Below are positions 35,056 through 64,000 of a stretch of 64,000 nt of DNA, one piece after another (position 1 is the first letter of the stretch; the number at the start of each line of letters is the position of its first letter). The position numbers and the translations under genes were made by a program. This stretch comes from Vitis vinifera (lineage: Eukaryota; Streptophyta; Magnoliopsida; Vitales; Vitaceae). The notes beneath the pieces were generated by a model that worked only from the letters and a program-made list of their open reading frames with translations, was not told where the DNA came from and searched no databases. Location: positions 15,258,001 to 15,322,000 of the forward strand of contig NC_081807.1 in NCBI RefSeq assembly GCF_030704535.1, read 5' to 3'.

Positions 35056-35258
35056 CGTTATGATAAATTTTAGCAAGAAAAGTTGTAGCATGCAAGTTCC
35101 CTTTGAAAGGACACCACAATTAATGTGATGGAATTTGGAACAAGAAAAGTCTTCTTTGGGTTTCCAAGAAGTTTTCCAGAGTGAATCATTTGCATATAAA
35201 TTGGTGTGTACTCATCACCATTTCTCTCATCTCTCCACTCTCAATTGCTTTAGGAAGA
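35056..35258 (+). promoter_or_regulatory. Promoter of the broken RLP copy
   Basis: Matches the promoters at 7755 and 15815: 'gataaattttagcaagaaaa', 'accacaattaatgtg', 'aagaaaagtcttctttgggt', 'gaatcatttgc', and the TATA box 'tataaa' at 35195-35200, about 60 bp before the ATG at 35259. A transposon ends directly at its left border. Confidence 0.75.
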
Positions 35259-38200
35259 ATGATGTCTAAATCGCTCCTCCTCTTCTCTTCTCTTTTCTTC
35301 ATCTCCTGTTTTCCGCTTCTTTCCTCCTCTTTCTCTTTCTCTAATTCAACCAAACTGTGCCCGTATCACCAAACCCTTGCTTTGCTCCACCTTAAGCAAT
35401 CATTCTCTATCAACAATTCTAGTTCTTCGGATTGCCATTATAATGGTGTCATGTCTTATCCCAAAACAGAGTCTTGGAAGAAGGGTAGTGATTGCTGCTC
35501 ATGGGATGGGGTCGCCTATGATAAGGTGACAGGCCATGTAATTGGGTTGGACCTCGGTTGCAGCTGGCTCTTTGGCATCATCCATTCCAATAGTACCCTT
35601 TTCCTCTTTCCCCACCTGCGAAGGCTCAACCTTGCTTCCAATGACTTCAATGGGTTTTCTATTTCAACTGGGTTTGGCCGCTTCTCAACTTTGACGCGTC
35701 TCAACCTCTCCTACTATGTATTTTCTGGAAAAATTGCACCTGAAATCTTCCACCTCTCCAACTTGTTTCACTTTATCTATTTGGGAATTATAGAGCAGAA
35801 TTTGCCCCGCATGACTTCAATTCTCTGGTTCAAAATTTAACCAAGCTGCAGAAGCTTCACCTTGGAGGTATATCCATCTCTTCAATTTTTCCTAGTTCTT
35901 TGCTAAATTGGTCTTCTTTGATATCATTACATCTCTCTGACTGTGGATTACATGGGAGATTCCCTGACCATGACATTCACCTTCCAAAACTCGAGGTTCT
36001 TAGTTTAGAGGGAAACGTTAATCTCAGTGGAAACTTCCCACGATTTAGTGAGAGCAATTCCCTTACGGTGTTGTTTTTATCACACACAAATTTCAGTGGA
36101 GAGCTTCCTACTTCAATTGGCAATCTAAAGTCTTTAAAGACTTTGGACCTCTCCTATTGCGAATTCTCAGCTTCATCCCTACTTCAATTGGCAATCTAAA
36201 GACTTTACAGACTTTTAATCTCTTCGATTGCAAATTCTCAAGGTCCATCCCTACTTCAATTGGCAATCTAAAGTCTTTACAGACTTTGAATCTCAATTTT
36301 TCCAAATTCTCAAGGGTAGGTACTTCGCTAGAGAAACTTTCACAAATCACTTTATTGCACTTCAATGGGAATCGTTTTGGTGGTAAAATTCCAAGTGTTT
36401 TTAATAACCTTAGAAATTTAATTTCATTATCTCTTTCTAGAAAAAATTTTAGTGGGTAGCTTCCACCATCAATTGGAAATCTAACAAACCTTCGGGAGTT
36501 AGGCTTCTCTCATAACTTTAATTAGTTCAATGAGACAATACCATCTTGGTTGTATACTCTACCATCATTGGTAGTATTAGATCTCAGTCATAACAAACTC
36601 ACAGGTCATATTGGTGAGTTCCAATTTGATTCATTGAAGTATGAATGAGTTACATGGGTCAATTCCAAATTCAATATATAAGCTTGTAAACCTTGGATAC
36701 TTTTATCTTTCTTCAAATAACTTAAGTGGTGTTTTGGAGACAAGCAACTTTGGAAAACTTAGAAACCTCACTTGGCTTGATTTTTCAAACTACATGCTCT
36801 CATTGACCACCTCTAGCAATTCCAACTCCATTTTACGCAACATCCACAACCTAGACCTTTAAAATAATAAGATTAGTGGAATATGGACATGGAATATGGG
36901 AAAGGATATACTATATTACTTGAATCTTTCTTAAAACTCGATAAGTGGGTTTGAGATGCTTCCATGGAAAAATATACAAATTCTAGATCTTCATTCCAAC
37001 TTGTGGCAAGAACCACTTCCAACTCCTCCAAATTCTACATTTTTCTTTTCAGCCTCCCATAACAAATTAAGTGGAGAAATCTCATCATTGATTTGCAAAG
37101 CGAGTTCCATGGGAATTCTTGATTTGTCTAATAACAACTTGAGTGGCATGCTTCCTCATTGTTTGGGGAATTTTAACAAAGATTTCTTTGTTTTGAATTT
37201 ACGAAGGAATCAATTTTATGGCACCATTCCTCAAACATTTTTAAAGAGTAATGCTATTAGGAATATTGACTTCAACGATAATCAATTAGAAGGCCTAGTA
37301 CCTTGATCTTTGATCATTTGTAGAAAACTTGAAGTTCTAGACCTTGGGAATAATAAGATAAGTAATACATTTCCCCATTGGTTGGAAACTCTTCCAAAGT
37401 TACAAGTTCTTGTTTTACACTCTAATAGTTTCCATGGTCAAATAGGGTTTTCCAAAATCAAATCCCCATTCATGAGCCTAAGAATCATTGATTTTGCCCA
37501 TAATGATTTCGAAGGTGACTTGCCTAAAATGTATTTAAAAAGTTTGAAAGAAATAATGAATGTAGATGAAGGCAACATGACAAGAAAATATATAGGGGAT
37601 TATTATTATCAAGATTTTGTAATGGTGACAATCAAGGGGTTGGAGATTGAATTTGTGAAAATCTTGAATACTTTCACAACAATTTACTTATCAAGCAACA
37701 AATTCCAAGGAGAGATTCCAAAGTCCATTGGAAATCTTAATTCACTCCAAGGGCTCATTTTGTCTCATAACAACATTGTAGGACATATCCTAATCTTTCG
37801 GGAATTTGAAGTTGCTTGAATCATTGGACTTCTCTTCGAACAAGCTTATTGGGAGAATTCTACAAGAATTAACAAGTTTAATATTTCTTGAAGTTTCAAA
37901 TCTTTTCCAAAACAATCTCACTAGAACTATACCTCGAGGCAATCGGTTTGAGACATCTGGAAATGATTCATACAATGGGAACTCAGGGCTATATGGATTT
38001 CCATTATCGAAGAAATGCATAGTTGGTGAAACACTAGAGCTTTCAAAAGAAGCAGATGCAGAGTTTGAAAGTGGGTTTGATTGGAAAATCACATTGATGG
38101 GATATGGATATGGATTGGTAATTGGGTATTCTCTTGAGTGTCTCGTTTTCTTAACAGGGAAACCTAAATGGTTGACAATGATGGTTGAAGAGAACATTCA

Positions 38201-38285
38201 CAGGAAGATCACAAGGTCTAAAAGAAGTACTTGTAGGAAAGGAGCAACAAGAAGTAGCTTGTTTCACTCGCTTTGTATTATGTGA
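35259..38285 (+). pseudogene. LRR receptor-like protein, broken sister copy
   Basis: Parallel over its whole length to the intact RLP at 7933. The first ATG is 35259 (the frame's leftmost codon at 35181 is GTG). Signal peptide, N-terminal cap with CCSWDGV, LRRs, island (KSLKEIMNVDEGN near 37540), membrane span and basic tail are all recognisable. Breaks: a frameshift near 35770-35820; a one-base loss in the first of three tandem 72-bp LRR units (36109-36179 is 71 bp); a TAG near 36458; a loss with frameshift near 36520; stop codons near 36860, 36933 and 37304 (TGA where the intact gene has CGA); and a shift near 37790. It cannot make a full receptor. The tail differs slightly from the intact gene, ending in SSLFHSLCIM. 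Confidence 0.92.
36109..36325 (+). repeat. Tandem LRR expansion in the broken RLP
   Basis: Three consecutive LRR-encoding units start 'tacttcaattggcaatctaa' at 36109, 36180 and 36252 (71, 72 and about 72 bp, i.e. 24 residues each). The intact gene has one such unit at the matching place (from about 8782). This shows LRR gain by unequal exchange or slippage. Confidence 0.85.
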
Positions 38286-39972
38286 TACATATTACAAATG
38301 GATTTTACATTTGTCAACAATCTAATTGTTATTATAAAAGTATAATATTGTTTGTAAATTTATTTATTTTGTGACAATGCAATAGTCATAGGATTCAATA
38401 TTTTTCCAATCAATTGGATAACTTAAAATTCAAAGGGCAATTTCTATATCTTAGAAATTAACCAAACACTAATGGATGAAATATTAAAGACATAGTAGGA
38501 ATTCAAATATACTTCTAATTTTTATTCTTTTAAAAAAATAACAAAACTTTTATATAAATTTTTATATAAGTAAGGACTCACATTATGTTTTCAAAACTAC
38601 TTTTTAGTTTGTTTTATAAAAAAATTAAGAACACAAAGTTTTTAAAGTTTTAAACAATTTTTTATATTTAAATCTTCTCTCTTACTATAAAAATGAGTAG
38701 ATTTTATAGAAAAGTTTAAAAATAAAACAAATAACAAATAAAAAACAATAAAAAGTGCTTCCAAACACCACTTTTTTTTTCCAATAATTCCTATTTTATT
38801 ATTACATAGGGAAAGACCAGTAATTTGTTTATATTAAACATGTAGAGGTATATTATTTTTTACTTGTATTTTATTTGATTAAAACATGTATAGGAGCCAC
38901 GACTAAGCCAAGCTCAGGCCACGACATGGCAAAATCATTGCAATCAAAACTTAATTAGCATTTCATTGGAAATCATTTTTCAAATATATGTTATTGAGAA
39001 ATCTCAGTTGTCACATCAGGGAAAAAAAATTGTGAAATGACCACTTGATATCTTTTAATTTTGAAAGGATATCATTGTTAGTGTTGTATGTTAAATATTT
39101 AAATCAATTCTATAATTGTTATAAATATTTGAAGAAAAAAAACATAAATAAATTATATGATTTAACATTTTTTTTCAATCAAAGTGATTGATACACTCCA
39201 TCCATTAAATCAATAAACAAAAAGTATAGTTTTTTTTTTTTAATTATTCATTTAAACAAACTACACTCTTTGTCCCTTACCATTTTAAATATTAATATTC
39301 ATTTTAAAAATATTAGTATACATTATATTTTTTAAAGTAGTACTATTTATTTTAATAAAATATATATATAAATTGTAATAATCATTTTTAAAAGTTGGTG
39401 ATTTGAGAAATTTGTTTCAAATATTCATGAATTTAAACTTATGTCTTTTTCTCAAAATAAATAAATAAATCTTATTAATTTATTATGAATAATGTCCTTT
39501 TTAAAATATAATGTTTGATTATTTAATAAAAATATTGTCATTTATCACAACTTTTTAAAAATTTATTATCTATTTTTAATTCGAAGAAATAAAATTTTAA
39601 TATTCATTTTGAAAAAATACCCAATGATGTGTTGTGGCCTTATAATAAAGTTTTTTTTTCTATTTTTACTTTTATTTTCTATTTAAATAATTATTTAAAA
39701 AAATCTGAAACTAAAATCGTTGCCACGTAGGCCATCCAAGTGAGATGGCGCAAGATAGATGCAATAACTTGGTGGTAATAGGATGCATGTATTGAAATAT
39801 TATACCGATTTAAAAATATTATTTTAAATTAATTATATGTACTATTAAGAAATTGATAACAAATTTTATTATGTAAATAAAATAAAAAATTGACTCCATT
39901 TTCATTTAGATTTTTATTTTAATACATGTAAAAATTCAATTTAATAAAATTAATTCTCATTATTTATTTTTA
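38286..39972. repeat. RLP 3'-flank duplicate, copy B
   Basis: From 38615 on this is almost the same as 1-1385; from 38286 to 38500 it matches the 3' flank of the intact RLP. It lacks any gene. Similarity to the window start ends abruptly at about 39972 ('ttatttttag'), where the MULE starts; copy A instead continues with 'ttatataaagggtcaagtga'. Confidence 0.88.
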
Positions 39973-40181
39973 GGAAAATTCTACAATACCTCCTTCGGTA
40001 CAATGCCTCCATTTTTTTTCAGCCATTGGATGAAAATGATTAAATCTCAGCCATCCAAATGAAAAGGAAAAAAAAATAATTTCAAACCGGGTACCTCCCC
40101 CTCCCGTTCTCTCCCCCATCTCTCTTCCTTTTCCCCTTTTCCCCCCCTAATTTGCTCTCTTCCCGTCCATAGCTGGCTGTG

Positions 40182-40410
40182 TGGCTCTCATCTTTGTTTT
40201 CTCTCCGTTTTCCCGTTTTTCTCTCCACTCATTCTCCACAGCTGGGTGAAGACCACTGGCTCTCATCTTTGTTTTCTCTCCCTTTTCCCGTTTTTCTCTC
40301 CACTGATTCTCCACAGCTGAGTGAAGACCACGGTCGGCTCTCATCTTTGTTTTCTCTCCCTTTTCCCGTTTTTCTCTCCACTGATTCTCCATAGTTGGGT
40401 GAAGACCACG
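40182..40410. repeat. 75-bp tandem repeat, about three units
   Basis: Units begin near 40182, 40257 and 40334 with 'ggctctcatctttgttttct' and end with 'gtgaagaccac'. Reading frames on both strands through this repeat (40147-40394) are by-products of it. Confidence 0.85.
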
Positions 40411-40688
40411 GTCGGCTTCAACCAGGCCAACCTCTTCGAGGCCGACGTCCCAGACCTTATCAAAGACGTCTCCACAGCTAGGTGGAGACCACCTTCGCCG
40501 TCAACCGGGATCAAAGACGTCTTCACAGGTGGGTGGAGACCACCATCGCCGTCAACTGGGCCAACCTCCTCCAAGCCGACGTCTTTGACCTCATCAAAGA
40601 AGTCTCCCTCAAGGACCGCGAGCTCAGGATTGTGGGCGAAGTCGGTGCCAAGATCCGAGTCTTAGACTTCATTTCTCCTGATGTCCAG
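40411..40688 (+). pseudogene. Exon-like captured fragment, product not recognised
   Basis: GC-richer than its surroundings. A coding-like phrase occurs twice in degenerate form: QANLFEADVPDLIKDVS near 40423 and WANLLQADVFDLIKEVSLKD near 40555, the latter going on to RIVGEVGAKIRVLDFISPDV and ending at a good splice donor (CAG/GTCAGC at 40688). The base composition and splice site suggest a host exon picked up by the MULE and partly duplicated. I do not recognise the parent gene. Confidence 0.5.
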
Positions 40689-40953
40689 GTCAGCTATTTT
40701 TTCTGCTAGATTCTTCTTCTTGAAGATTTTATGTAAATTTTCTGAATTTTTGCTTTCTCTCCCTTCTACCCCTGCATTTTGTCACACGGAGAATTTCGGT
40801 TCTTTCACACGGAGAATTTTAGTGGAATCTTCATAACCCTTGTATTTTCTTCATATTTTATATTTTGTTTAAGAGGTGTAAGGGGGTGTTTTCAGGTTCT
40901 AAATTTAATGGTTTAAAAACCCGAATTGAAGACGTAGCTGGAAGAAGAAGAAG

Positions 40954-43900
40954 ATGACGTGTAGTACTAAGGAAAAGAAAGCTGAGAAGGACACAATTGT
41001 TTGTTACTCAAAAGGCGCTTGTATCCTAATTATTTGGCGAGTTCTATATAAAGGGAAAAAAATGTGAGTAGTAATTATGTGTTTTACAATATTGTATCCA
41101 TTATATTTCATGTTTTTTGTTAGATTTATGGATTGATTACATTATAGAAAAAGAGTGTGGTTAGATCCATTATTGACCATTGAAAAAAATTTATATGTTA
41201 ATTTTGTTATCATTTTAAATGTAAAGAGATTTAGGGAGGATGTGGTAGTTGTAATGGTATTTGTATTTTAATTGGCATATTATTGATTGTAGGAAGATAT
41301 AAATATAAAATTTATTGAAATGTGAAAAAAAACTTATGTTGAGATAATGTGGTGGTGAAAGTATGTTTGATTTATTATATCCGAAATCATATTATAAAAA
41401 TTGACTTAGATGATTTGATTTAATTTTTAGGAGCGAACGCGATGGTCTTGAAGTTGTTAGAAATCCAAAGAGGCCTATCGGTGCTTGGATACATTACTAG
41501 TAAGGGAAAATAGAAATATGTAAAATAATATGTTTTTAAATGTAATTTTTGTGGTTGTTATAGTTAAATTTGTTTGAAATTGTTTTGTAGTAACGATCAA
41601 TTAGCCATGATGAAAGAGAAGGATAAAGGAGTGAAGATAAATGATGATGTAAGGAGTAATATTGCTATGTCTAATATAATTACATTTTAAAATTAGAATT
41701 TAAATTATGTGACCAATTAATGTAGTTGAGGAAAAAATTGGGCAAGAAGTGGAATGCACTTTCAAAAGTAGAAAAAGAAAATTTCATGGCAAAGTCCAAA
41801 GAAAGTTCAAAACAATATTCACTTCAAAAGGGTGTGGTTCGAAAGGTAATTTTTTTTTGTAATGAATATTTAATTTCTTTACTTATGTATTTTTTGGAAA
41901 TTATATTAATGTAAACATGTTTGATGTTTGTGTATCTTTTCAGTTATATCTTCAAATTCGATGCTCCCCCGAGCGAGTGATTAGAGTGATTGAAAAATTA
42001 GAACCAAAGCAAAAGGCAGCCATAGAAGAAATAGGATTTGGTAGTCTCTTGCAACTTCGATGTAGGAAAATTGATCATGGGTTATGTCTTTGGTTGATAA
42101 ATAGTTTTAATCCGAACACTTATATCTTAAAGTTGTATAATACTTGTATCAAATTATCCCCCATTGATGTTGAATTTATTGAGGGATTGAGGGCAAGAGG
42201 GTTCAAGATTGGCATGAACAAAGATGTTAGCCATAAGAATGATTTATGTAAAAAATATTGTGATAAAAAAGGGCGATTGCCATTAGTGATGTTAGAAAAT
42301 CAAATTAGGGAGGATAAAAAGGGTGGAAACGATTTTAAAGTTCGTTTTGTATTATTTGTGTTGGGTGCATTATTGTGCCCAACAATGAAGCTTTTTGTGA
42401 ATCGTTCTTTCTTACATCTTATGGAAGACATCGATTCAATAAAGAAGATGAATTGGGCAGAATTTGTGTTGTCCTATCTTGTGCACGGGATTGAAGAGGT
42501 TAAGAAGAAACAACAAAGTGGGGTTTGCGGTTGCTTATTGTTTTTAATGGTAATGTCCTTGTAATTAATTTACATCATAGTGAAATACGATTTTGTTTTA
42601 ATATAATTTATGAACTAACTATATATCTATGTCAAATATACTCGTAGTTATTCTACCACGAGCATATATCGTTTGAAGAGAAATTTCTACCGCTATATAC
42701 TCGACCTTCTCCTCGGATTACTGCTTGGGGAGATGATGAAGTATTGGACAGGAAACGAAGATTGAAAAAACTTGGTGGATATGCAAATGAGAATGTAAGT
42801 TATAGTTTCGAAAGTCGTTTACTATTGATTTAAGTTTTTAGTGATTTAAAATCTGATATGTATTATATTTTGATGAATATATTGTAGCTCAAAATATGGG
42901 TGATAGAAAATGAGATAAGGGATTGCGTTGATGGAAATGCAACGATAATGGCGAGTGAGAATGAGGACGATGAGAAATTTGTAATCAATCTAAACAAAGA
43001 TGTTATTAAATGAGTAAGTTTTACAATATTCATCGTGACTATCTATATTAGCATTGAACCTTTGTATTATGATGTTATTAATCACGTTCGTATATATCAC
43101 TAGGTTGATGGTGGGAACTTAATGGAGATGGATAAAACCTTTCAACAATTAAAGACACATCTAATTGATATGGCTTATGGTGCAAGTAGTAGTAGTTGTG
43201 ATCAAATTTTGGCTAAATTTGAGGAGAATTATACTACAGTGAAAGGTCTCTTCCTTAGGTCAAGCGGAAAACCTTTGAGAATGCACGAGGAAGGAACGAA
43301 GAATGACATTCTCTCATGCGAGAGAAGTTTGGAAGATACGAACAATATGAATGTGAATGAACATTATCTTCACACTTTGTCAAATGAGAAGTTATGCACC
43401 GAGGACTTGAATGAAAAGAATGAAGATGCATGTGCTACATCAATTGAAGTGCATATCATTCCAGACGAAAATCAAAATATTTTACCACTTCCAATCAAAA
43501 GGAGTAGAAGAGATTATGGAAAGGTATGTATCATATAAAAGAAAAAATTATTTTCTTTACAACTACTTAACCATTACATAGTAAATAGATGTATATTAAT
43601 GGCATTTTCCATATTAGGAACCATTACAAGCACTATGTGGTTATCCTAATCATGTCATGAAAACACGTACATCAAGGGAGAGGAAACCAAGTAAATTCAA
43701 GGTCTCCCCATTTGTACACAATTTAAGGAAGATGGTAAAATGTGAAGCATCAGAGGTATAATACAAATAGTTTAATATCATTGTTCTTATTTTTGATACT
43801 TAACATATATAGTTAATAATTATGTCTTGTTTTCGATTTAGTCAATCCCCATGTCCATTCGTGAAGACGTGCTGGATACTCAATCATTCAATGTACTTCA

Positions 43901-45228
43901 ATCTCTTGTCGCTGATTATGTTTTCAATAAAGCATTGTCAAAAAGGTTTGTCGTGTCTAGAACATTCATAGATGTGTTGTTACAATTTTAGCCTTCATAT
44001 GCTTCCAATTTAGTCAAGTTTGTTTTAACATATTATTATTTTAGTGAGCTTCTTGTTGACTTTGGTCATGAACATGGAGTTCGTGGAGATTTTGAGTGCT
44101 TACGTCCTAGACAAAATTTGATGGATGTTGTCAGTACCTACTTCATTTATATCAAATGCGTGCTATATTAGTTAAATAAATTTATTGAAGTTATTGTTCA
44201 ACAACAGGTAATAAATCTAGAAGCCTCAAAGCTAAATTATTTTGAAAGACAATTCATATGCATACGAAGTATAAGATTCTATCTTCCCACGACATTTTTA
44301 GTAAGCTCATATTTCTCTTGTTGTTTACTTACATATTAAGTACAATATACTAATGTTCGTATTATGTTTTCTTATTAGCAAATGATTTTGTGCGGGAGTC
44401 CTCATCCTTTTTTCGATAGAAAAACATCCATCGTGAGTAAGTACATTAGCGAATTGGATGATTGCGAGAAGGTTAGTAATTATTTGTAATGTTTAATTGC
44501 ATATATGAAATTTAGAGTAGATATCGTTTTCACCTATAATATACTATATTTTTTGTGGGCCAACTCATATATATTGTTTTCCTACCTTTACAGCTATTTA
44601 TTCCAATGCATGACGATTGCCCTGGTCATTGGTATTTATGCGTCATTGACTTCAAACACTTTGATATCCAAATTTTGGATTCATTACGATCGAAGAGTCG
44701 AGATGAGTTCCGGTTTAAGAGTGTCAAAATAGTGGTATGCTTTCTGCTTTTTGTTTTCCTTTTTATTTGGTTTTTTTTTTCTCTTCTATATTTATTAACC
44801 ACTTTCAAAATAAATTAGGTTGAATTTTGTCAAACGTTCTTCAAACTGTATGACATAGGGAAAGATGTCTTCCAATTCTCCATTGATTGGGCTCCTTCAA
44901 TTCCGACCCAAGATAATGGGTTAGTATGAATACATAACTCACATTAATATTCTTTTTCTGAGGTATAATTAGACAACCATTCAATAAGTTGTTTTGCTTT
45001 TCTTTTCTCTTTCTTAGGTGGGATTGTGGAGTGCATGTCATTAGACATATGCAGAGATTCAAAAATGGTGATTCGATGACGAGCTCCGACTTTTGTAATT
45101 CTGTTAAAATACGTCGAGAAATAGCATGTGATTTAGTTTTACACGAGGGAAATAGAGAAAAACAAACCATTGTGGCTATTGTTTGTACAAAGATGTCGAC
45201 ACGAGCAATGAAAAAATTATTATTATGA
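40954..45228 (+). CDS. HMG-box / DUF1985-like / Ulp1 protease fusion, MULE-borne
   Basis: I infer 16 exons: 40954-41063, 41431-41499, 41591-41648, 41726-41845, 41944-42549, 42648-42794, 42888-43013, 43104-43523, 43618-43755, 43842-43945, 44045-44126, 44208-44300, 44379-44471, 44594-44734, 44819-44919 and 45018-45228 (about 872 residues). All introns are GT-AG with matching phase; the donor after exon 11 is weak. Residues 48-110 fit an HMG box (NPKRPIGAW at the start, LGKKWNALSKVEKE in the middle, Lys/Tyr-rich end). Residues 120-340 resemble the DUF1985 region of Ulp1-type MULE proteins (FGSLLQLRCRKIDHGL). Residues 600-872 are a C48 protease with His734 (GHWYLCVID), Asp751 (ILDS), Gln800 and Cys806 (QDNGWDCG), spaced as in yeast Ulp1. 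One oddity: TGA at 43011-43013 ends exon 7 in frame, unless the weaker donor after 'gagaaattt' (GTAATC, about 42981) is used. C48 enzymes cut SUMO from proteins; HMG boxes bind DNA. The function is not proven. Confidence 0.72.
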
Positions 45229-45499
45229 TATTTGTTATTTTTCTAATATTTATTATTTCCATCTCCACATATCGTCATGTTTATTGGGAAATTGTGAGAT
45301 TCGATGACCATACATTATTAATGATTAAGTCCATTTTATTTGAATATCCAAATACTCTTCTTTCAATATGGTAGGCAAAATGAAATTGTAATATATTGGT
45401 ATCATTCATGTTCGACATGTGTGATTTTGTACGATCTTTAACCTAATCAGATTTGTAAATATTTATTTATCTATGCTAAAAATATATAGTTAGTACATT

Positions 45500-46195
45500 A
45501 GTAGACCGGTTGACGAATGGCGTTCAGCCGGTAAGAACCAGTCCAACGATTTAGCTAAGTCCACTTTTCATAGGCATACGCATTATGCCAACCGGTTGAG
45601 AACATTCCTCATATGGATAATGACCCTATGGATGCAGTGTGAACTCGTTGAGGATTTGTCTCAACCACCTCAAACAATTTTGGATGCAGAATCACCTGGT
45701 GTCGGCATTCAATTGAGTGATTGAAGATTTTTCTAAAGGGAGTGAGCACTTTTTTGAGTTGTGGAAAGCGGTTGATCAATGAAGAAATTGTGTCAATCGG
45801 GTGACGAATGATTTGACCAGTGGGAACCGGTTGACAGATATAGCAAACCGGTTGAGAAAATTCCTCAACCGGTTGATGGTTTTTTAACTAGTGGCAACCG
45901 GGTGAAGATGGGTATCAATTAGTTAAGGAATTTGCTCAACCGGTTGAGGGTATTTTTAACCAGTGGAAACCGGTCGACCACCTGTATCAACCGGTTGAGG
46001 ATTTTTTCACCAGTGGCTACCGGTTGAGGAATTTTCTCAACCGGTTGAGGATTTTTTTAACCAGTGTCTACCAGTTGAGGAATTTTCTCAACCGGTTGAG
46101 AAAATTCCTCAACCGGTAGCCACTAGTGAAAAAATCCTCAACCGGTAGCCACTAGTGAAAAATTCCTCAACCGGTTGAGGCCAAATCTCAGTCGA
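45500..46195. repeat. CCGGTTGA motif cluster with a perfect 40-bp palindrome
   Basis: About 14 copies of a motif around ACCGGTTGAGG/AACCGGTAGCC in 700 bp, on both strands. Positions 46074-46113 are a perfect 40-bp palindrome centred on CC/GG at 46093/46094. Imperfect inverted similarity extends to about 46010-46170. It lies about 270 bp behind the Ulp1 gene and before the convergent transposase gene. No gene is present. Confidence 0.9.
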
Positions 46196-47326
46196 TTGCC
46201 TCCTGCAATGCTATTGTGCAATTTACGAGTACGACTACCGTCCACAAAAAGGGTATGAGTTGTATCAATAACTTTTCACTACGTAAACATTCGACAAAGT
46301 ACCATTAAGTTCAATTAAAAGGTTTGAAATTGATGGAAACTGCCATTACAAATTACCTAACTACGATTTACCCATTTTGAGTAAAATCACTAACTTTACC
46401 TATTTCATATGAATTACATCATATTGATTACTTTCCTATAGTTAACTCATAACCACCTAATTGTCAAACTTTAACCACAATTGAATTTAATTAAATCTGC
46501 ATAATTAACCGTTTTTTTCGACATGATATAAATGAATCGGTTTCTCCATTTACCAATCATTTTATCGCTTGTTATCAATTAAATTATAAATGTAGAGGAT
46601 ATTGCATTCTATTAATCAACTTGACTCTTGATCAAAATTCAAACTTTTCATTAAATAGTTAAGTTAAAAGTACACATTAGTGGAAGTGACAACGTCAACT
46701 AATATAAATACTGATTTAATACCTACCATCCCTTACTCTATTAAGGAATAAAAAAAAGGTTGCATATCCTTTTCATTTGGATATTTGTTTGGATCCCCAC
46801 CTTGACATGGTGTTGTCATATTTTGTTCATGTTGCTGAAATCCTGCTATCTACACATGCACATTCCATTGTTTTTTTCAGCTGTCCAATTCCATTCCAAT
46901 TAATTAAACCTAATCATTAAATAATGCATAGCTCAAATTCATGTCAAAAGTGTTTCTTTATTCCTAAACTTACATTATTAAGTTCACCACAATCTATGTA
47001 CATGTCAGATCGGTCATTCGACAAATGCTCCCCTAACATTCCCTGCATTTTTCAATAATTAAGTGTTGTCAATTATTATTGAATTAGATGTTATCAATGT
47101 TTGGAAATTATATAACAAGCCTATTGTACATACATGTACGGTTGCAAAAATGTCAACTGATGAATTTGTTGAAGGCATCATTTCCATTTGAATGTCACAT
47201 TGGGAAGACAAATTAGTTTCCTCCTACGTACTCATAATGCCATCAAAACAATTATGTTAGTTATTTATGTAAGTACAACTACAAAAATTAATCTTAGGGG
47301 TAATTTTTTATTGAATATGACATACC
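46196..47326. other. AT-rich part of the MULE, no gene seen
   Basis: Lies behind the transposase 3' end. On the minus strand a splice donor-like GTATGT follows the codon run at about 47327, so 3' exons of the transposase could lie here, but none is recognisable. The plus frame at 47188-47601 is a shadow of the transposase. Confidence 0.5.
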
Positions 47327-47373
47327 ATATAACCCAGCTGAGCATTTTGAGGGATTGTAGCTTCTGGACACTT

Positions 47374-49545
47374 TCAAATTGTGTGACCCACTCTTTTACA
47401 ACGACTACATCGTCTTCCCTTTTGAACATTCATTGCCACTTTGCCTGGATTTCCTTTAGTCTTCACAATATTTGGATCACGAACTTGGTTAGTACCTGTC
47501 GCTCCATCTGCTGCTATTTTCTTCCCTTTCAAATTATAGTTATAGAGTTCCTCCATTCTCGCCGTCAAATTTTGTATTTCATTTTTGGCCTCTATAAATG
47601 AAGATGACGTATCTGACGTAAAGTAGGAGAGCTTGTTGCACATCGAACTCAATGAACCATATCGTACAAACCGATCCATGTCGTTATCCGTCTCATTCAC
47701 TGGTACTGATCTTGTATACACCTTTGCTAACTTTGTCCACCTCTTCATAATACATGACTGAGGAATCTCTTCCAAATGCTCCACCTTCATAACAACCACC
47801 ATGTGGCAACATGGGATGCCAATTGACTCAAACATCATGCATGAGCATTTTAATGTTACAATATCCGGGCAAAATTGTACTTCCCAATTTAAGTTCGGGT
47901 GTCTAAACTTAGATAATGTGTATGCCTGCATTGAATGATCACTTACAAGACCTAACACAAAGAATAACTCTGCATTTTTCATCTCCTCACAAAATTTAAG
48001 GAAAGATTCTTTCATGTATACTGTCGCAACATGATTTTCAAGTATGGATAGTTTGGTTGAAAGCACGGGTGAAGAATTGTTCGACTCGAACTTTGCCTTT
48101 GCCTCGTTTTGCCGTATTCTCAGTATGGCTCTATCAAATTGTTGTACAAACTCATACAATCGCAAGCGAATTTTTAAGAATCTATTTAGATATGCATTCA
48201 TACTCTCACACCTTTGTGTGGTTCTCATCCCTCCAAAGAAATTTCCATGTAAATACGCCTCTGCCCATCTTTTACGTTTCCCATATATCTCGGTCACCCA
48301 ACGATTCTCATTAAGTCCCAAATTTGCAACCATTTCATGCCAAACCTTTTCAAATTCTTCTTCATTTCCACGCATGAACATGCACCTTGCAAATATGCTT
48401 GAGAAGTCCTTAATATGCACATTCGTGAATGCATTTAGTTGCAAATGCCATGAACACAATCGATGACACGTATCGGGTAATACTTTTTTAATTGCCTTAC
48501 GCATAGCTTTATCCCCATCGGTTACAACAGATATGGGTTTCTTATTCATCATTGCATCAAGAAATGTCTCCAACACCCATTCATATGTCCAAACACTTTC
48601 ATCTATCAATAACGCACAACAAAATACAACAGTTTGGTGGTGATGATTAACACCGACCAACACTACTAGAGGCTTTTTATAGGCATTTGTCCTATAAGTT
48701 GTGTCAAATGCTAGGACATCTCTAAAACACACATAATCCATTCGAGCAGTTGAATCAGCCTAAAACAAATTTGCTAGTTGACTTTCTTCATCAATGTTGA
48801 ATTTATAAAAAAATGAAGAATCCATTTCTGCCTTTCCACACAAATAAGCCAATGCCGCTTCTGCATCACCGTCTTTAATTTCACTTCTACGCATTGCATC
48901 AACGTGATTGTATATATCTTTTTGTGTGAAACCGACGTGCTCATGTCCCCCTGATTGTTTGACCATATAGTCCATAATTTGTGTGGTTGTAACACCTACT
49001 TTACGCAAAACATCAACTTGTGCCTTATCTGGACTACTTATTGTTCGATGAGACCGAAGGAATTGTGTGTTGATAGCATCGACCAAATTATGACTATGAT
49101 CTCCTATAAATTCCTTTACAATCCACTTTCGATCTTTCCTATTCAAGCCTACATGAAATGCAGCTTCACATCCAACTCCACTCAATGATCGTGGCTCACG
49201 CTGTCGCTTGTCATTTTCAATAAACTTTGTCGCTCACTGTCCTTCTCTAGAACACACCCACTTTCGAGATATTATATCTCCATTCTTGTCTCGCTTCAAA
49301 TCATCTTTTCGAATACTAAATCCGGCTACTTTTGCTAACATGTTGTAAAATGTTTTAGCCTCATCTATGCAATCGAATTGCAATTTGTAGACTTCTTCAT
49401 CTGAAATACCCTTCAACACCTTCTCTTTCAAACCGTTTCTACCCAGGTGGTAAGTGCCACCGATAAATGCATCGTCATTGACGACGTCCTCCTCCTTCAT
49501 TTCAAACTCCCGCTTGATTGTTTTCTCCTTCACCGATTGCATCAT
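47374..49545 (-). pseudogene. FAR1-type MULE transposase, three nonsense codons
   Basis: One continuous minus-strand frame from ATG 49545 to 47374. The N-terminal FAR1 zinc-binding domain shows Cys in WVCSREG, Cys in GCEAAF and His in DHSHNL. The DDE core follows: Asp in AFDTTY (48705-48703), Asp in VVTDGD (48519-48517) and Glu in RCESMN (48207-48205). A SWIM zinc finger (CSC...CCH) lies near 47830-47780, and a CCHC knuckle starts CSRCKRVGH near 47400. Breaks: TGA at 49236-49234, TAG at 48762-48760 (family members usually have Trp there) and TGA at 47376-47374 inside the knuckle; after it the frame goes on with KCPEA. No frameshift is seen. Such enzymes cut and paste MULEs in the nucleus. A domesticated FAR1/FRS factor is possible but unlikely given the stops and the Ulp1 neighbour. 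Confidence 0.88.
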
Positions 49546-49859
49546 CTACATTACATAAATAACGTAAAAAAGTGCCCCAATAATACTTTAACAAATTATC
49601 GTATCACTTTTGTATCAATTGATTGCATACTTGAAGATAAACCGAATTCGACAACGTCATCTATTCTCATTTTTGGTTAAAAATTGAGAATTTGAGAAAT
49701 TATAGAACTGGTGTAGACTGCACACGTGATAATTTCCCCATGATTTTCAATTTAAAAGGTCATATGTTGCAAAATTGATACTTGTCTGCTATACACAATC
49801 ATAAGCAAAACTTTTTAAAATCATTAAATATCACTTAAAAATCATTATGGTGAGGAAAT

Positions 49860-50350
49860 AACTTGTGAAAATGCAAATGCGACACCAATACCCTAAAAAG
49901 ATGGCGTTAGACAATGATCGACGTCTGACATCTATACAGAAACGCACCATAATTTAAATTGACCTTAGACAACCAAGTGAAGTAATAGTTAAATTCAACT
50001 TCCTAGACATGGTTCTGCTGTTGAGGCTAAGGTTGTAGTGCTTTTGGAGGTCCTTGTGCAAGAACAATATTTCAGATTGTCCAACTTTTTTGTGGTAGGG
50101 GATGGTGTTGTTGGTCTTGATGAGCATAAAAAAACAATCGCTACAATTGTTTGGTTCCTCATAAACCGAATCTATTCTCTTCCCTTGCTCTAAGCTATTA
50201 TAATGTGGAAGAAAGTGGTTGACCTACAAATTCACTGGATGCATTTTGGTGCTGCTTACAAAATTTGGCAGTGTCTACCGGTTGAGAAAATGTATCAACC
50301 GGTCTTATTTAACCGGTCGACCGGTACATGTTCACTGTTATAATATCTTA
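49860..50350 (+). mobile_element. Remnant of the plant transposon-protein family
   Basis: The stretch 'ttagacaatgatcgacgtct' (near 49908) matches the C-terminal coding region at about 54035. The stretch at 50140-50350 (a 'ggttcctcataaa' phrase, then a CCGGT cluster near 50275-50325) matches 54640-54990. So the tail of a second copy of the 52788-54990 unit lies here, much shortened and broken. Confidence 0.65.
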
Positions 50351-51429
50351 ACAGAGTAGCTAATTATTTCTTTTCGTTGTTCATTTCATTAAGGCCTTCA
50401 TTCCTTATCAGAACGTTAGAATGTTGCCCTATTTAGGCATACTATGTTAACAAAAATTCCATCATTAATCTTAGTTGTCATCTTCAAGGAGTTTGCCAGT
50501 CACAATAATTAATACCTCTCATGCACATTCTTTAAAAACATGGAAAATCACTTTTATATAATTCTATCTAAAAGCATGGAAGCTTTTGGGTACGCCGCCA
50601 AACTTATTCCAAACTTACCCCATATTGGGAGTCAATAATACACATTTCTTAAGGTTGATTCTCTTCTTTTAAGTCAGTTGAATATGTATTACCCTATAAT
50701 TTTGATGATAGTGTGATTTTTACAGCCAACATGAATCACTTATATTATATAAATTAATGTCAACTGTTCAACAGATCACTGATGCATATTACTAACAATG
50801 TGCTATAGACAATCAAAATCCAAACTCTTTAACATCATTACATACCATTTAAAAATCACTATTAGGTTTTGGGAATATTTCCCCATCCATTTGAAAGATG
50901 AGGGCATTCAGCTTAAAAAATGTATTATGGATTTGTTTACCTATTCTTTATTGAGTTAAAGATCATACCGTTAAAATGGAAAGTCCAAGTGTGATGCAGC
51001 TTGACCTGAAGATTTGTCTTCTGGATGTTTTTTGTAACCTGTTCTCTAACATATAGCAGACCTCATTCAGTCTCCAAGCTCCTTACAATATGTTCCCTTC
51101 CAAATATATACTAACATATGTATGTGGTTGGTTGATGGAGTTATTACATTTTTTAATAGGCTGCCACATGTTGAAAACCTACCACCACAATGGTACACTT
51201 AGTGGTTGATAGTTTGGATATTTGCATCAGTTTTTTAGGTGCCATTAAATATAACATTTATAGCAGGTGGGAAAGTCAGCCTAATGTGGATATTTTTTAC
51301 ACCCATTTGAAATGGATATATGTATAACTTAACAAAATATAAAGGGGAGATATGGACTTAATTGATAATATTGACATTTCTTACTGTTGTTTAGCCTATT
51401 TATTGTAACTATGTTTTCATACCGTTTCC
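50351..51429. other. AT-rich spacer, no gene seen
   Basis: No reading frame or repeat of note was recognised. Confidence 0.6.
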
Positions 51430-52400
51430 TACTTACTATATTTTTTCATCAATTAACGTGATTTATTTTTAATTAATGCTTCCTAATATATCCTAGATAT
51501 GAGAAAGGTTAGTTAATTAGACTTAGTTACGTAAAATGAGATATGTTATGATATTCTACTAATGGAAATTTTAAATAAATTCAGATTCATTAATTTATTT
51601 CACTCACCATGGTATATCGTACTTATTCGAACAATTTGTCATACAACCATAATTAATTTTAATGCCCCTATGGTAGTATATGTTAGTTAATTACAATTTT
51701 AATCTAATAGGTGTGACTATATCTTAGTGAGTTCATTATACTATATTTTTTCATGAATTAACGTAATTTATTTTTAATTAATGCTTCATAATATATCCTA
51801 GATATGAGAAAGGTTAGTTAATTAGACTTAATTACGTAAAATGAGATATGTTATGATATTCTACTAATGGAAATTTTAAATGAATTAAAATGAGATATGT
51901 TATGATATTCTACTAATGGAAATTTTAAATAAATTCATATTCATTAATTTATTTCACTCACCATGGTATATCATACTTATTCAAACAATTTGTCATACAA
52001 CCATAATTAATTTTAATGCCCCTATGGTAGTATATGTTAGTTAATTACAATTTTAATCTAATAGGTGTGACTATATCTTAGTGAGTTCATTATACTATAT
52101 TTTTTCATGAATTAACGTAATTTATTTTTAATTAATGCTTCATAATATATCCTAGATATGAGAAAGGTTAGTTAATTAGACTTAATTACGTAAAATGAGG
52201 TATGTTATGATATTCTACTTATGAAAATTTTAAATAAATTCAGATTCATTAATTTATGTCACTCACCATGGTATATCGTACTTATTCGAACAATTTGTCA
52301 TACAACCATAATGAATTTTAATGCCCCTATGGTAGTATATGTTAGTTAATTACAATTTTAATCTAGTAGGTGTGACTATATCTTAGTGAGTTTATTATAC
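51430..52400. repeat. Three-copy tandem repeat, 305-355 bp units
   Basis: Units start near 51430, 51741 and 52095, each with 'ttttttcat(c/g)aattaacgt' near the start and ending with 'ttagtgagtt(c/t)attata'. The middle unit is about 49 bp longer because 'atgagatatgttatgatatt' and what follows is doubled (51841 and 51890). Copies are nearly identical by eye. Non-coding and AT-rich. Confidence 0.92.
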
Positions 52401-52787
52401 TATATCGTACATATCAGAAAGGTTGTCATATTTTATTTTCCTTAATATAAATTTTGTGAAATTAACTTCAATTAATTTATTTAAGGTACATCAAGATATT
52501 TAATCATTTAATCCATTATAGGTTAAATGAGTTCATATGGAAACTATTAAATTAAAAGTGTAGCAAATATAATGTAAGACATTAAGTTAATTAAATTTAT
52601 TAGTTCATAAACTGGATGTCTTTCCATATACTAGGAAGGTCGACCGACGTTCAAACCACTTATAACCCTTAGCCCCTTTGTCTTCTACTCCATTATTCTT
52701 CATCCTCGTGCAAGACCTGAACCCATCCGTCTTCCACTCCAGTCTTCTTCATCCTCACGCAATACCTGAAGGCCACTCGGAATATTC
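52401..52787. other. Region upstream of the first transposon-protein copy
   Basis: AT-rich to about 52620, then GC-richer with 'ggtcgaccgacg' near 52638. No gene is seen before the ATG at 52788. Confidence 0.5.
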
Positions 52788-54188
52788 ATGGCTCCAAAAC
52801 GAGCACCGGTCGAAGCATCCTCCACCGGTAGGAAATGGAAGAGAACGGCAGTATCAAGGATGCGCAGGACCAACAAAAAGACCTCCGACCGACAACAACC
52901 CAGCGACAGCAAGCAGAACACCTCGGATGGAGCACAATGCACCACCAACAAAGGAAAATGACCGGTCGTCGAAGCAAGTCCGGAGGTTTGTAAGAAGGCC
53001 ACCTTTGATCGATCTACGTTCGCAACCCCTAACCTAGCCCAACGATTTCATTTTCACTTTGCGAATCGGACCATAATCCTGGGTAGGAACATTGATTTTG
53101 CAAAGCTCAGTTATTTCCATTTTGATGTGCTTTTCGCGAGAATGGGTTGACTTCCTATTGTCTCCGTCAAAGAGTTCCTTTATCCCAAGGTTGTCAAATG
53201 TTTCTACTCCAATATGACATTCGAAGATGAAGGACCCATTACTACCACGATTAACGGTGTACAGATCGTTTTTGATGTTGCTGAACTTTGTCGGATTTTA
53301 GAGATTCCAAATGAAGGGTTTTGTTTGTATGAAGCTAAGAAGTGGCCAAGGGTGGAAGGTTTCAAACCTGCAGAAGCTATACAGAGGCTATATGGTTACC
53401 CGAGATCTAGTAGACCAACTTCCCATTTGTTGACTGTGTTGAGTCGTATCCTACATCACATGATATCGTACATTTTCATCCCTAAAGAAGGGCACCAAGA
53501 TGATGTATCTTTCTTGGAGGCTTTTTTGGTTGACAACATTCTCACAGAAAGAAAGGTTAATATTGGTTACATAATTTTCCAACATATGAAAGCATGTTCA
53601 ATCAGCGAAGATTCAGTTCTCCCCTATGGCATGTTTATCACAAAGATTGTCAAATACTTCAATGTCAATTTGCGCAATGAGACAGACGGGAAAAAACTCA
53701 AATCATTTGATACATATGATCGGGCTTCACTTCGGCGCATGCATTTTGTTCGGATGAAAGATGGTTCATGGGCAAGGAAGTCTTTTGTTCCCCCCTCAGA
53801 GGTTGATGTGTCTTCAGACAATGGGTCCTCCGAGGATGAAGAATATGAAGATCAAGATGTGCAGGGAAGAACTTATGCAAAATCAAATGTCACACGAATA
53901 CCGTCAAGAGGTGGTGTAAGAGCTAGGGCGTTAACAAATCATCCTTCACTAATTGGACCAGACGACTCTGAGGCATCAGATAACCTCAATGCCTAGATTA
54001 ACTCCCTTGGTACCCGCTTGGAGGAGATTGTATTAGCCAATGACCGACGTTTGACATCTCTGGAGAATCGCATTGATGGTTTACACGAGGAAGTGAAAGA
54101 GGGTATGCAAGTTATACGAGGCCAGCATGATGAGATGATGGTCTTCTTGCGATCCCACTTCCCGCTTCATGGACCAGACCATATATGA
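52788..54188 (+). mobile_element. Plant transposon-protein family gene, fossil copy 1
   Basis: One reading frame of about 466 codons with about three interruptions. The core (53214-53780) contains ITTTINGVQIVFD, CRILEIPNEG, LSRILHHM, LPYGMF, FDTYDRASL and DGSWARK; an acidic tail follows. The same phrases occur in the same order at 58647-60068. It fits proteins annotated in plant genomes as 'putative plant transposon protein domain', usually part of LTR-type or large non-autonomous elements; the biochemical role is unknown. A CCGGTT-rich block lies 500-800 bp behind it. Confidence 0.75.
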
Positions 54189-54639
54189 CCCCTTCTACAT
54201 TTTGTACTAGTTTTATAGTTATTAAACTTTAATTCTGTTTTTGGACATTTGGCTAATGTAAATGACCTTTTGTAATTATGACTTCTCGTATTACTTATGG
54301 ATGTAGTGATCGGCCATTCACATAAATGGCGTAAATGTATTCGCTCAATGCTGATGATGGTATATGGATGATGTATTTTCCTCTACATGTATATATTATA
54401 TCTAGCTTATTTTGTTTATAGCTCTTGATATATAGGTTATTTTCATCTCTTTAAACCTTCTTCTATATATTTAAAATTGTTGGTGGACATCACATAATTT
54501 AGGTTCCCATTTGGGTGCCATGAATATTTTTGTGTTTTAAATATTGAGTCTGTAATCCCTAGTTTCGGATGGCAAAAGGAAGGTTATGACTATTTCCATC
54601 AAAAGCATAGAAGAATCATGCGTTAGGAAGGTTATATTG
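54189..54639. other. Non-coding tail of copy 1
   Basis: AT-rich, no gene seen. It links the coding remnant to the CCGGTT block, in the same arrangement as at 49950-50140 but longer. Confidence 0.5.
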
Positions 54640-54990
54640 AGTATTGGTTCCTCGTAAAACGTATGTATTCTCCTCCCTTGGTCTAATCTACTATAATGTC
54701 TACGAATATGGTCACCCTACTATATATTTTTTTCATAAAACTTGAGCAGTTTCAACTGGTTGAGGCAATGCATCAACCGGTAGCAAGTGCCCATTTTGGT
54801 TTTGCAAAAAAAAAAAAAAATGGCAGTGTCAACCGGTCGAGAAACAGCATCAACCGGTCGCATGTTGGATTGCAACCGGTAGCCACTGGCCATTTTGGGA
54901 CGCGCATCAAGAAATGACCAGTGTCTACCGATCGAGTGCACAGGTCAACCGGTTGCATATAACCAGTCGACCGGTTCATCATTACTATAA
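54640..54990. repeat. CCGGTT motif block, matches 50140-50350
   Basis: Contains about eight motif variants: 'caaccggtagc', 'caaccggtcg', 'gcaaccggtagcc', 'tcaaccggttgc', 'cgaccggttc'. The lead-in 'attggttcctcgtaaaa' matches 50150. The short reading frames here on both strands result from the repeat. Confidence 0.8.
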
Positions 54991-56732
54991 TAGGTTGAGA
55001 TATGCTTGCCTGCTTGCATAAATTATCGTACTAAGTTTTAGCCCTCTTTTTTCCTTATTAAAACCATTCTTGATTTACTACTTTAAATAGATTTTATTTG
55101 AGGTCCATTTGGATGTCTTATGAAAACAAATATCTCCATTGTGTTTTGCATAGATTTGAAGTTCAAATCTCAATTCTAGAATGGTGCTATCAATGAAAAT
55201 GAGATTCCTGGTAATAGGCCGATGGCATGGGAGCAATTTTGACTTCCCCAGTAGGGCCACTATTTTAACTTTTAATTTTTAATCCTCACTTGTGAGCCAT
55301 TGATTTCCATTGTTGTGAGCCTTTAAATTTCCATTACACATCCAACTGCAGCTGTAGTGTTTACTTCTGACCAACAATTTTCATGCTCAACACATGTTAA
55401 TGGTCAGATGGAATTCTACTAGCAATGGAAACTTATTGTTTGTCATGTGCATTATATACTACATACTTGCCTATTGTTATGTCCAGCACTAGGTATAGTA
55501 GTTAAGCATTTCCCATCACTTCCATTCCCACAAGTGTCATGTCTCGAACGTCAATTTTTTTTAAAGCTGATCTCAGCCTAGGAGAAATGAGGAGGGTCAT
55601 ATTGGGTTGACAATGAAAATTAAATCCTCAGTAGAAGTCTTAAATCCTCAAGAACATTTGTCTACAAAATTTTCAAGTTAGTGCATGGCCATTTGGTGTG
55701 ACAGAAGATGATTCTAGATGGGATTAAAAAAATGTGAAAAGGATAATGTATAGCTGACCCAAAATTTTAGAACTTATTTCAAGGTTCAAGATGACCTAAT
55801 GCCCTTGAGGCCTTGTTCAAGTGGTAAAGGGTTGGGGAAGGTTTGTGGGAGGTTCCAAGTTCAAGCCCCAATGGGGATTCAAGAGGACTTAGGTCTGTGT
55901 TTCAACTCAAAATTCAGAATGGTCACATTGATAATGGAATCATCCCTTTGAAAGGAAAATAGTTGACTCCATAACATTTTCTGCCTAAGTATTTTAATCA
56001 AGGAAGTGCAATTTTTTTCTTTTTTCTTTTATATTTATTTATTTGTGGGGGGTGGGGGGTGAGGAGCGTGGATGGTGTTCTCAATTGTTATGATGACCTT
56101 GCTTGGCATTTTAATTGTTGGTGTCCTGAAGAATTACCAAGTTTCGAGGATTTGATGTGATAATTTTTGTGAGTATTCAAGAAGATGCTCCAATTATCAA
56201 GATATGCTTGAGGCTTTTTTTATGGCACCATTATGTTTTATATCACTTAAGGTAGGATTGATCTGCACTAATTTTATGAAGAAAAGAAAAAAACTCTCTG
56301 ATGGATCTCCAAATTGAATATAATTCAACAGCATGAAGATTTAATCCCAAGTATTGGGGTTGGCTACATGAATCTTGGTTTTCTATTCTGCTCTTTAAGC
56401 CATACTTTTTGCTTAATCATACACCACCAACATGTTTTGTCTCTCAATTTCAACCATTCTCTAGAATTGACTATATACAATTTTATGTAAAGAAAAACAA
56501 GTAATTTTAACTTGTAATAAATAGCATGATTGCTAAAGACCTAAATGATGATACAACTTTAAAGTTGAATGGCCAAAAGACATTTATGTGGTTAACTCCA
56601 AATAGTTGGGATTTGGGCTCTGTGAGTTGAGTTGTGGAAATTTGGTAATTCAAAGCTAAGAAAATTAACCCATGCTGCTCCAATATCGGATATCTAGTAA
56701 TAGCAATTATATATTTCTTTTGAACCATGCAG
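54991..56732. other. Non-coding region with a SINE-like stretch
   Basis: No gene seen. At about 55795-55930 the phrases 'ttcaagtggtaaaggg' and 'ggttccaagttcaagcccc' look like the A and B boxes of a tRNA-derived SINE, and 56330-56370 ('cccaagtattggggttggct') also looks like a widespread plant repeat. A short G-rich run (ggggggtggggggtgagg) is near 56047. Confidence 0.45.
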
Positions 56733-56877
56733 ATATTAATGCGTGCCCTTTCCAGACCTTCATTTGGAAATTATCGTGTTTGGTGGTCTCTTGCAGATTC
56801 CAAATATGCAGGGACCGCATTGTTTGTTAAGAAGTGTTTTCAACCAAAAAAGGTCTCTTTCTCTATTGATCAAAAGG
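56733..56877 (+). pseudogene. Lone exon of an APE1L-type AP endonuclease
   Basis: An exon-like piece with acceptor 'catgcag' before it and donor 'agg/gta' after it. It encodes ILMRALSRPSFGNYR, then VWWSLADSKYAGTALFVKKC and FQPKKVSFSID. From memory this matches an internal exon of Arabidopsis APE1L (AT3G48425), a nuclear base-excision-repair endonuclease of the exonuclease III fold. Neither the preceding exon nor the following one (with the HEPDGR...LNTYAPN segment) is seen nearby, so it is a captured or left-over exon, not a working gene. Confidence 0.7.
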
Positions 56878-57944
56878 GTATTATGGATAGGATCTTTTTG
56901 TTGTTTTATCATATGAAGAATTTCTTACTTTGATCAATTGTTAATTCTTTTCATGGTTAAGTAGAAGTTAATTGGACTTTCTTCAAATTGCAATTTGCCC
57001 ATGCATTGCTTGAACATGTTTCTAGGTAATTTGTTGCATTCATCCATGTGTGTATTTATTTATTGGAATTCTTGTTATGTTTATTTGCACATGTGGGTTT
57101 AAAGAGTGGCAAACCGTACATATGATTGGCACTTAACAATAATTTCTTTTGTTGAAGATTTTACACTTTGTTTCATGTTGAGAATCACAGTTATAATAAA
57201 TTAAAATCATATAATCTTATTTATAACCTGTTAGAGTTAGTAATTAAGGATGATTTGTTGTTTTTCTTTTCCTTTTCTTTTTTTTTTCTCCTCTTTTTGT
57301 AAGTTTGAACATGGTTTGAGGGTATTATGTGTATTTTAGCTCAACATTCCATGTATATGACTGCAGCAAGTGGTTGAAAGGACAGATGAATGGATTTTCA
57401 GAAGTAAAAGAAAAATGGAAGTTTGTTTTGGCCAAACCTCTATCTCAAATAGCTAGAGATTATGAAAATTGTGTATCATAATTATTTGTGATGATGTAGT
57501 TCTTGAATAGCTTGGAATATGCAATCGGCAACTAATCTATCGTTAGTAGCCACTGCTTATTGATAAAGGCTTCTTAGTTCGGGGAGGCTATCTTAAAAAT
57601 ATGGAAAAATCGCCTCAGTGTCTAGGCTTGAGGAGAGAATGGGGCTATTTGAGAGGAAAGATAAGGGAGGACTCAGTGTGGCCCTATGGCAGTAGGATGA
57701 GGAGGCCATGCTATGGGATGTGGATTTGGGCTTCAAAGAGTGAATTGCATTCTACATCAAAACCCCAGGACCCTATCCCTTAGAATGTGGCTTCATGGGT
57801 CTTATATGGAAGATTGGATGCATGTGAGGGTCCACAGTAGTCACAGAAGGCCCTAAATCAATTACAAGATTAAGGATGCCTGCTTGATGCAAGGCTAGCC
57901 GGTCTCTAACCAAAGTTGCCATTGCTAGAATATTGGAGGTCAAA
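56878..57944. other. Spacer, no gene recognised
   Basis: A coding-like phrase occurs near 57370-57478 (WLKGQMNGFSEVKEKWKFVL) behind a 'ctgcag' acceptor-like site, but I cannot assign it. The frame at 57601-57783 is not recognised. Confidence 0.4.
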
Positions 57945-60068: not shown

Positions 60069-60079
60069 TATCTTCGAGA

Positions 60080-63975: not shown

Positions 63976-64000
63976 TGACCGTTTGATCGAGCCTTAGAAT

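Follow-up and report, generated by a model that had tools for sequence, protein, structure and literature searches.

Several grapevine families of Mutator-like elements (MULEs), including some Jittery-like families, have been reported to carry a ULP gene downstream of the transposase, and MULE ULPs are found there in both orientations (PMC2528002). In the Arabidopsis VANDAL elements, which are MULEs without terminal inverted repeats (TIRs), the VANC proteins bind short motifs that are repeated in tandem in the non-coding DNA of their own element (PMC5735166; PMC10398659), and they cause a loss of methylation; the domains named for VANC are DUF1985 and DUF287 (PMC5735166), and KIU (Kaonashi) denotes those VANC genes that bear an Ulp1 domain (PMC13317346). 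On the side of the host, the silencing of transposons involves the plant mobile domain (PMD) proteins MAIN and MAIL1 (PMC5418596), and MULEs have captured PMDs, for which an anti-silencing use was suggested by the authors (PMC5418596; PMC8616336). Here we describe a predicted gene of Vitis vinifera in which one protein would combine an HMG box, a PMD and a C48/Ulp1 SUMO-protease domain. The gene occupies positions 40954-45228 on the forward strand of a stretch of 64,000 nucleotides (the window; assembly GCF_030704535.1, contig NC_081807.1, positions 15,258,001 to 15,322,000) and is convergent with a frame for a FAR1-type MULE transposase.

The locus shares with the ULP-bearing grapevine MULEs a MULE transposase with a ULP gene downstream. 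The Jittery-like families Jitvine-1 and Jitvine-2, of 11.9 and 14.4 kb and thus longer than 10 kb, have no TIR listed and, likened by their description, would fit this element; the main text of that report contains no occurrence of HMG, however, and its relevant parts name no PMD (PMC2528002). With the VANC and KIU systems it shares an accessory gene, bearing Ulp1 in the case of KIU, and short motifs repeated in the non-coding DNA of the element, whereas the motif is a different one, DUF1985 and DUF287 stand there in place of the PMD found here, and HMG has no occurrence in the text of PMC5735166 drawn on. In the grass and Amborella MULEs with PMD-C, the PMD is likewise encoded by the element, but there it is fused to the transposase, whereas here it lies in a separate gene with the HMG box and Ulp1 (PMC5418596, in the parts used). 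Each of the three parts has a precedent by itself, Ulp1 and the PMD within MULEs and the HMG box as a domain, but among the matches listed no report had all three in one gene. No HMG-Ulp1 or HMG-PMD-Ulp1 fusion in a MULE was recognised among the matches listed in the open-licence literature, and annotated, unpublished cases may exist in domain-architecture databases. The joining of Ulp1 to an HMG box and a PMD leads to a direct hypothesis, namely, that the protease is recruited to chromatin and reverses silencing there; if the HMG box were only a captured fragment, the locus would be one more Pack-MULE-like capture.

The exons were re-derived from splice signals and reading frames, and six in-phase splice variants were compared. 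Sixteen exons can be joined in phase, as listed here together with the in-frame TGA discussed below.

40954-41063, + strand: exon 1; ATG start, open frame, no known domain, donor AAT/GTGAGT
41431-41499, + strand: exon 2; start of the HMG box, phase-matched, HMG_box match from residue 49
41591-41648, + strand: exon 3; HMG box, phase-matched, inside the PF00505 match
41726-41845, + strand: exon 4; end of the HMG box, HMG_box E 7.1e-5 alone and 1.3e-12 when joined with exons 2-3
41944-42549, + strand: exon 5; most of the plant mobile domain (PF10536)
42648-42794, + strand: exon 6; the PMD match ends here
42888-43013, + strand: exon 7; 3' end at 43013 (donor after the in-frame TGA), 43001 or 42980
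43011-43013, + strand: in-frame TGA adjoining the top-scoring exon-7 donor; it is codon 412 wherever donor 43013 is used (three variants)
43104-43523, + strand: exon 8; linker, without Pfam match
43618-43755, + strand: exon 9; linker
43842-43945, + strand: exon 10; in-phase exon
44045-44129, + strand: exon 11; ends at 44126, 44129 or 44133 (uncertain), top score at 44129
44208-44300, + strand: exon 12; start at 44208, or at 44221 if the donor is 44133
44379-44471, + strand: exon 13; protease domain region
44594-44734, + strand: exon 14; catalytic His (GHWYL) and Asp (ILDSL)
44819-44919, + strand: exon 15; Gln (PTQDNG)
45018-45228, + strand: exon 16; catalytic Cys (WDCG) and stop codon

In the one variant measured, the 15 introns are of the GT-AG type and 77-367 nt long, with 14 of them between 77 and 122 nt and the first at 367 nt, and the GC content is 0.36 in exons against 0.23 in introns. 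Upstream of the ATG at 40954, a TGA in the same frame stands at 40927, and the support for exon 1 consists of its open frame and splice sites. Candidate donors were scored with a matrix derived from 14 donors of the same gene, which is a rough guide only (leave-one-out range, -5.07 to 9.47). For exon 7, three donors are available, all in phase 0, at 43013 (TGA/GTAAGT, score 6.32), 43001 (GAT/GTTATT, 4.42) and 42980 (TTT/GTAATC, 3.31). The first of these follows directly on the TGA, and a frame that remains open past exon 7 requires one of the two weaker donors, both of which score inside the leave-one-out range given above. Unless a weaker donor is used, the frame in this copy is probably cut short after the PMD. 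The junction of exons 11 and 12 allows three in-phase pairings, with donors at 44126 (-0.38), 44129 (3.97) and 44133 (1.48, dropping to -5.07 if this donor is left out of its own matrix); the top-scoring donor pairs with the acceptor at 44208. The protein assembled for analysis used the 44133/44221 junction, a choice that alters few residues, none of them catalytic.

A Pfam search assigned residues 49-111 to the HMG_box family PF00505 (E 3e-11; 44.0 bits against a cut-off of 25.4; profile positions 1-62 of 69), with a further match of the same residues to HMG_box_2, also above cut-off (E 6.4e-7). The box is encoded by exons 2-4 (41431-41845), and it is recognised mainly as a join of the three, since exon 4 by itself falls below the cut-off and the exon-2 piece by itself gives no match. 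Among sequences in the PDB, the best match is an SRY/HMGB1 chimera (E 2.7e-8), followed by Abf2 and Nhp6A. As in the HMGB-type proteins Nhp6A, HMGB1 and Abf2, the box is basic (17 Lys or Arg and 8 Asp or Glu among 68 residues) and retains the KRP and W core; the difference lies in its fusion here to a PMD and a protease. At a position that is Asn in SOX/LEF proteins and Ser in HMGB proteins, this box has a Gly, aligned with a Gly in box 2 of Abf2, which argues weakly against a sequence-specific SOX type. Judged by these profile and alignment matches, the HMG box is genuine.

The plant mobile domain follows the HMG box in phase and spans residues 150-351 (PF10536; E 1.8e-12; 47.6 bits against a cut-off of 34.9; profile positions 1-214 of 347); a comparison of this domain with PDB sequences gave no match. 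DUF1985 was considered for this middle region and set aside in favour of the PMD, having reached E 0.12 and 12.8 bits against a cut-off of 35.1. This sub-threshold match extends over positions 22-139 of the 141 in the profile, and a distant relationship might lie behind it.

At the C-terminus lies a match to Peptidase_C48 (PF02902; E 2.3e-15; 57.5 bits against a cut-off of 20.7), the best stretch covering profile positions 80-204 of 217, with the first 79 positions outside the match. Yeast Ulp1 (1euv) is matched with E 7.3e-8, and its His, Asp, Gln and Cys residues are aligned with those of the predicted protein. The His-Asp spacing of 17 and the Gln-Cys spacing of 6 are the same as in the aligned Ulp1 chain in six of the six in-phase variants. 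The protein is predicted to carry a SUMO-protease domain, and the catalytic residues are retained. Overall, the case from sequence for the presence of the three domains is strong, and that for the HMG, PMD and Ulp1 parts residing on one transcript is moderate.

These results revise in part a preliminary description of the locus. Its HMG box, placed at residues 48-110, is recovered by the profile search one residue further on, and the yeast Ulp1 spacing that it gave to the catalytic residues holds in every variant and in the 1euv alignment. Its DUF1985-like middle region is replaced by the PMD. The 16 exons of matching phase do all join, with the qualification that the frame stays open only with a weaker exon-7 donor. 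The residues that it named as His734, Asp751, Gln800 and Cys806 are present, but this numbering applies to a single variant of the six (donors 43013 and 44126), which has the stop at codon 412.

The evidence that the gene lies inside a Mutator-like element, which we consider likely, is good and comes from the convergent transposase frame; one boundary of the inserted DNA was also located as probable.

47374-49545, - strand: FAR1-MULE-SWIM transposase frame; 724 codons including the terminal stop, with in-frame stops at codons 104 and 262
39973, no strand: probable left edge of the inserted DNA; the alignment of duplicates ends at 39972

In the transposase frame, Pfam finds the MULE domain PF10551 (E 1.9e-26) and SWIM above cut-off. 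The FAR1 match is split around the first stop, into profile positions 1-39 and then 46-89 (30.7 and 26.0 bits against a cut-off of 28.1); because the match continues across it, the codon-104 stop is read as a nonsense codon rather than an intron. This FAR1-type transposase we take to be Jittery-like. With two in-frame stops in the transposase and an in-frame TGA in the accessory gene, the copy looks decayed.

On the left, 38618-39972 aligns to 16-1385 at 91% (97.7% over the last 86 bases), the match ending at 39972/1385. A third related copy (~3.2-3.6 kb) also diverges there (3578/39972), and copies one and two match on to 1428/3622; since the other copies match each other past the break, a left end at 39972/39973 is probable. 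Bases 1300-1800, used to seek the right end, had no match to the right of 39972 at E 0.01, so that the right end was not located. No TIR was found at the left terminus: the best inverted match of 39966-40120 within 45229-64000 is of 16 bases, scores 32 against 22-28 in 20 shuffles and does not lie at that terminus. The absence of detected inverted repeats would be compatible with a non-TIR MULE. The best 15 candidate pairs listed for a target-site duplication over 45300-62000 were AT-rich or unconvincing, and no 9-bp duplication was identified. The placement of the gene inside a MULE, as first proposed, is likely in view of the adjoining transposase frame, although no TIR, target-site duplication or right end was found; the accompanying statement that Ulp1-bearing MULEs are established is borne out by the grapevine cases in print (PMC2528002, in part). 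Searches for relatives in viral contigs (HMG-PMD, transposase and Ulp1 queries) and in prokaryote genome contigs (transposase) confirmed none, which says little, these not being plant collections.

Between the two genes lies an array of sites with a CCGGTT motif.

45502-46178, + strand: array of TCAACCGGTTGA-like sites, including an inverted repeat (site scan)
45979-46200, no strand: long hairpin inside the array (RNA folding energy -136.6 kcal/mol, z -18.5, a stability reached by none of 200 shuffles)
50274-50324, no strand: more CCGGTTGA-type sites, upstream of the transposase (site scan)

Counting as TCAACCGGTTGA-like any site with up to three mismatches, we find 52 in the 64-kb window. The interspace 45229-47373 holds 20 of them, against a mean of 0.92 and a maximum of 5 in 1000 shuffles; the HMG-PMD-Ulp1 gene has one (mean 1.4 in 300 shuffles) and the transposase frame one. 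Other sites are at 49546-50400 (four), 54161-55000 (eight) and 60071-61100 (six), and the remainder are divided between the left 39972 bases (six) and other stretches (six). From 45827 to 46171, the CCGG centres are spaced 21, 29-30, 42 or 51 bases apart. That the motif might be private to this MULE was ruled out by its recurrence at 54.7-55.0 and 60.8-61.1 kb. Each of these clusters (54752-54978 and 60785-61043) is located downstream of a Transposase_32 gene, the first at 53151-53993 and the second, in pieces, at 58737-59645, and the motif is therefore common to different neighbouring elements. Just upstream of the MULE transposase, 49899-49946 and 50151-50342 are remnants akin to the 3' part and downstream portion of the Transposase_32 unit found at 54.0-55.0 kb; between 50151-50303 and 54644-54781 the match is 70%.

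The explanation that we tentatively favour, with a probability of about 45%, is that the gene is an accessory gene of a FAR1-type MULE, present here as a decaying copy, and that in intact relatives the protein would be a VANC/KIU-like anti-silencing factor with an added HMG box. The anti-silencing role is proposed by analogy, because VANC targets are tandem motifs in the element that encodes it and because KIU combines VANC with Ulp1; the PMD adds weight, since MAIN and MAIL1 act in silencing and MULEs have captured PMDs. In such a protein, the HMG box would supply DNA affinity, tethering it to its own element and perhaps to the CCGGTT arrays, which can form a hairpin; the PMD would disturb silencing by host PMD proteins of the MAIN/MAIL1 type; and the transposase or chromatin silencers would be the substrates that the protease strips of SUMO. 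A SUMO protease that acts on the chromatin of its own element is possible and fits the VANC precedent, while the CCGGTT arrays as its target are speculative. A bolder version, which we think unlikely, holds that a non-VANDAL FAR1-type MULE has built an anti-silencing protein from an HMG box for DNA, a PMD against the host PMD pathway and a SUMO protease as effector, that it targets the CCGGTT arrays between its genes and that other array-carrying elements ride along.

A number of observations weigh against the favoured explanation. The HMG-PMD-Ulp1 frame contains the TGA at 43011-43013. Of the VANC domains, DUF1985 is not significant in this gene (E 0.12) and DUF287 is not among its Pfam matches. 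Tandem and inverted duplication account for part of the array, so that its 20 sites cannot be counted as independent, and the choice of the interspace for counting was made after the repeats had been noticed. The motif is dense also at 54161-55000 and 60071-61100, downstream of the Transposase_32 genes, and the array hairpin could suit the production of small interfering RNA, that is, silencing.

The main rival, which we regard as quite possible, is transduplication alone: the MULE would have picked up HMGB exons, in the manner of a Pack-MULE, upstream of an existing PMD-Ulp1 gene, leaving the HMG part without a selected function or absent from the mature mRNA. The two introns inside the HMG box presumably stand where plant HMGB genes have introns, as expected of captured exons. 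Other coding-like debris lies upstream at 40482-40709, and an ATG inside intron 4, at 41917, shares the frame of exon 5 (open reading frame 41866-42564) and could serve as the start of PMD-Ulp1 translation. Gene-fragment capture is also reported for all grapevine transposon superfamilies studied (PMC2528002, in the parts drawn on). The splice signals nevertheless favour a joined message, as the exon-4 donor is good (7.26) and the exon-5 acceptor is pyrimidine-rich (TCTTTTCAG), and exons 1-4 have neither a stop nor a frameshift although the copy is broken elsewhere. Capture and function are, moreover, compatible with each other. That the HMG gene and the PMD-Ulp1 gene are two adjacent units on separate transcripts, or that the model is mis-joined, seems to us very improbable. 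The 16-exon model does have uncertain parts, as is evident from the TGA in frame and from the ambiguity where exons 11 and 12 join, but exons 4 and 5 are only 98 bases apart, and the gap is AT-rich (18% GC), has GT-AG ends and is similar in size to 13 of the 14 other introns.

HMGB-type HMG boxes bend DNA, and the Ulp1 protein might serve transposition rather than anti-silencing, its protease de-SUMOylating the transposase or host repair factors and its HMG box bending DNA for synapsis. The catalytic residues of the protease are retained, and the HMG-box protein HMGXB4 has been described as a host factor in the transposition of Sleeping Beauty (PMC10138897, in part). However, no TIRs at which the HMG box could assist synapsis were found, and the PMD points to chromatin silencing (PMC5418596, in part); we consider a role of this kind improbable, and retain the anti-silencing factor as the favoured explanation.

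The surroundings read as nuclear plant DNA, with two leucine-rich repeat (LRR) receptor-like regions, copia-type frames (read by eye) and short GT-AG introns. Of the LRR receptor-like regions, one is a single long frame at 7870-10878 (Pfam LRR) and the other, at 35.1-38.3 kb, consists of several shorter frames; duplications of an LRR receptor-like gene and flanking DNA pair 16-1385 with 38618-39972 and 7753-11179 with 35104-38523. Upstream of exon 1, at 40181-40709, three repeats of 75-78 bp are followed by a coding-like stretch with a 51-bp duplication. The fragment 40482-40709 had no Pfam match above cut-off and no PDB match, and the whole of 40181-40709 is perhaps captured gene debris. A sucrose-synthase fragment at 24196-24612 (PF00862, E 1.1e-70) lies between frames read by eye as retrotransposon, and a tandem repeat occupies 51434-52405, with a unit of ~305-354 bp in two to three copies.

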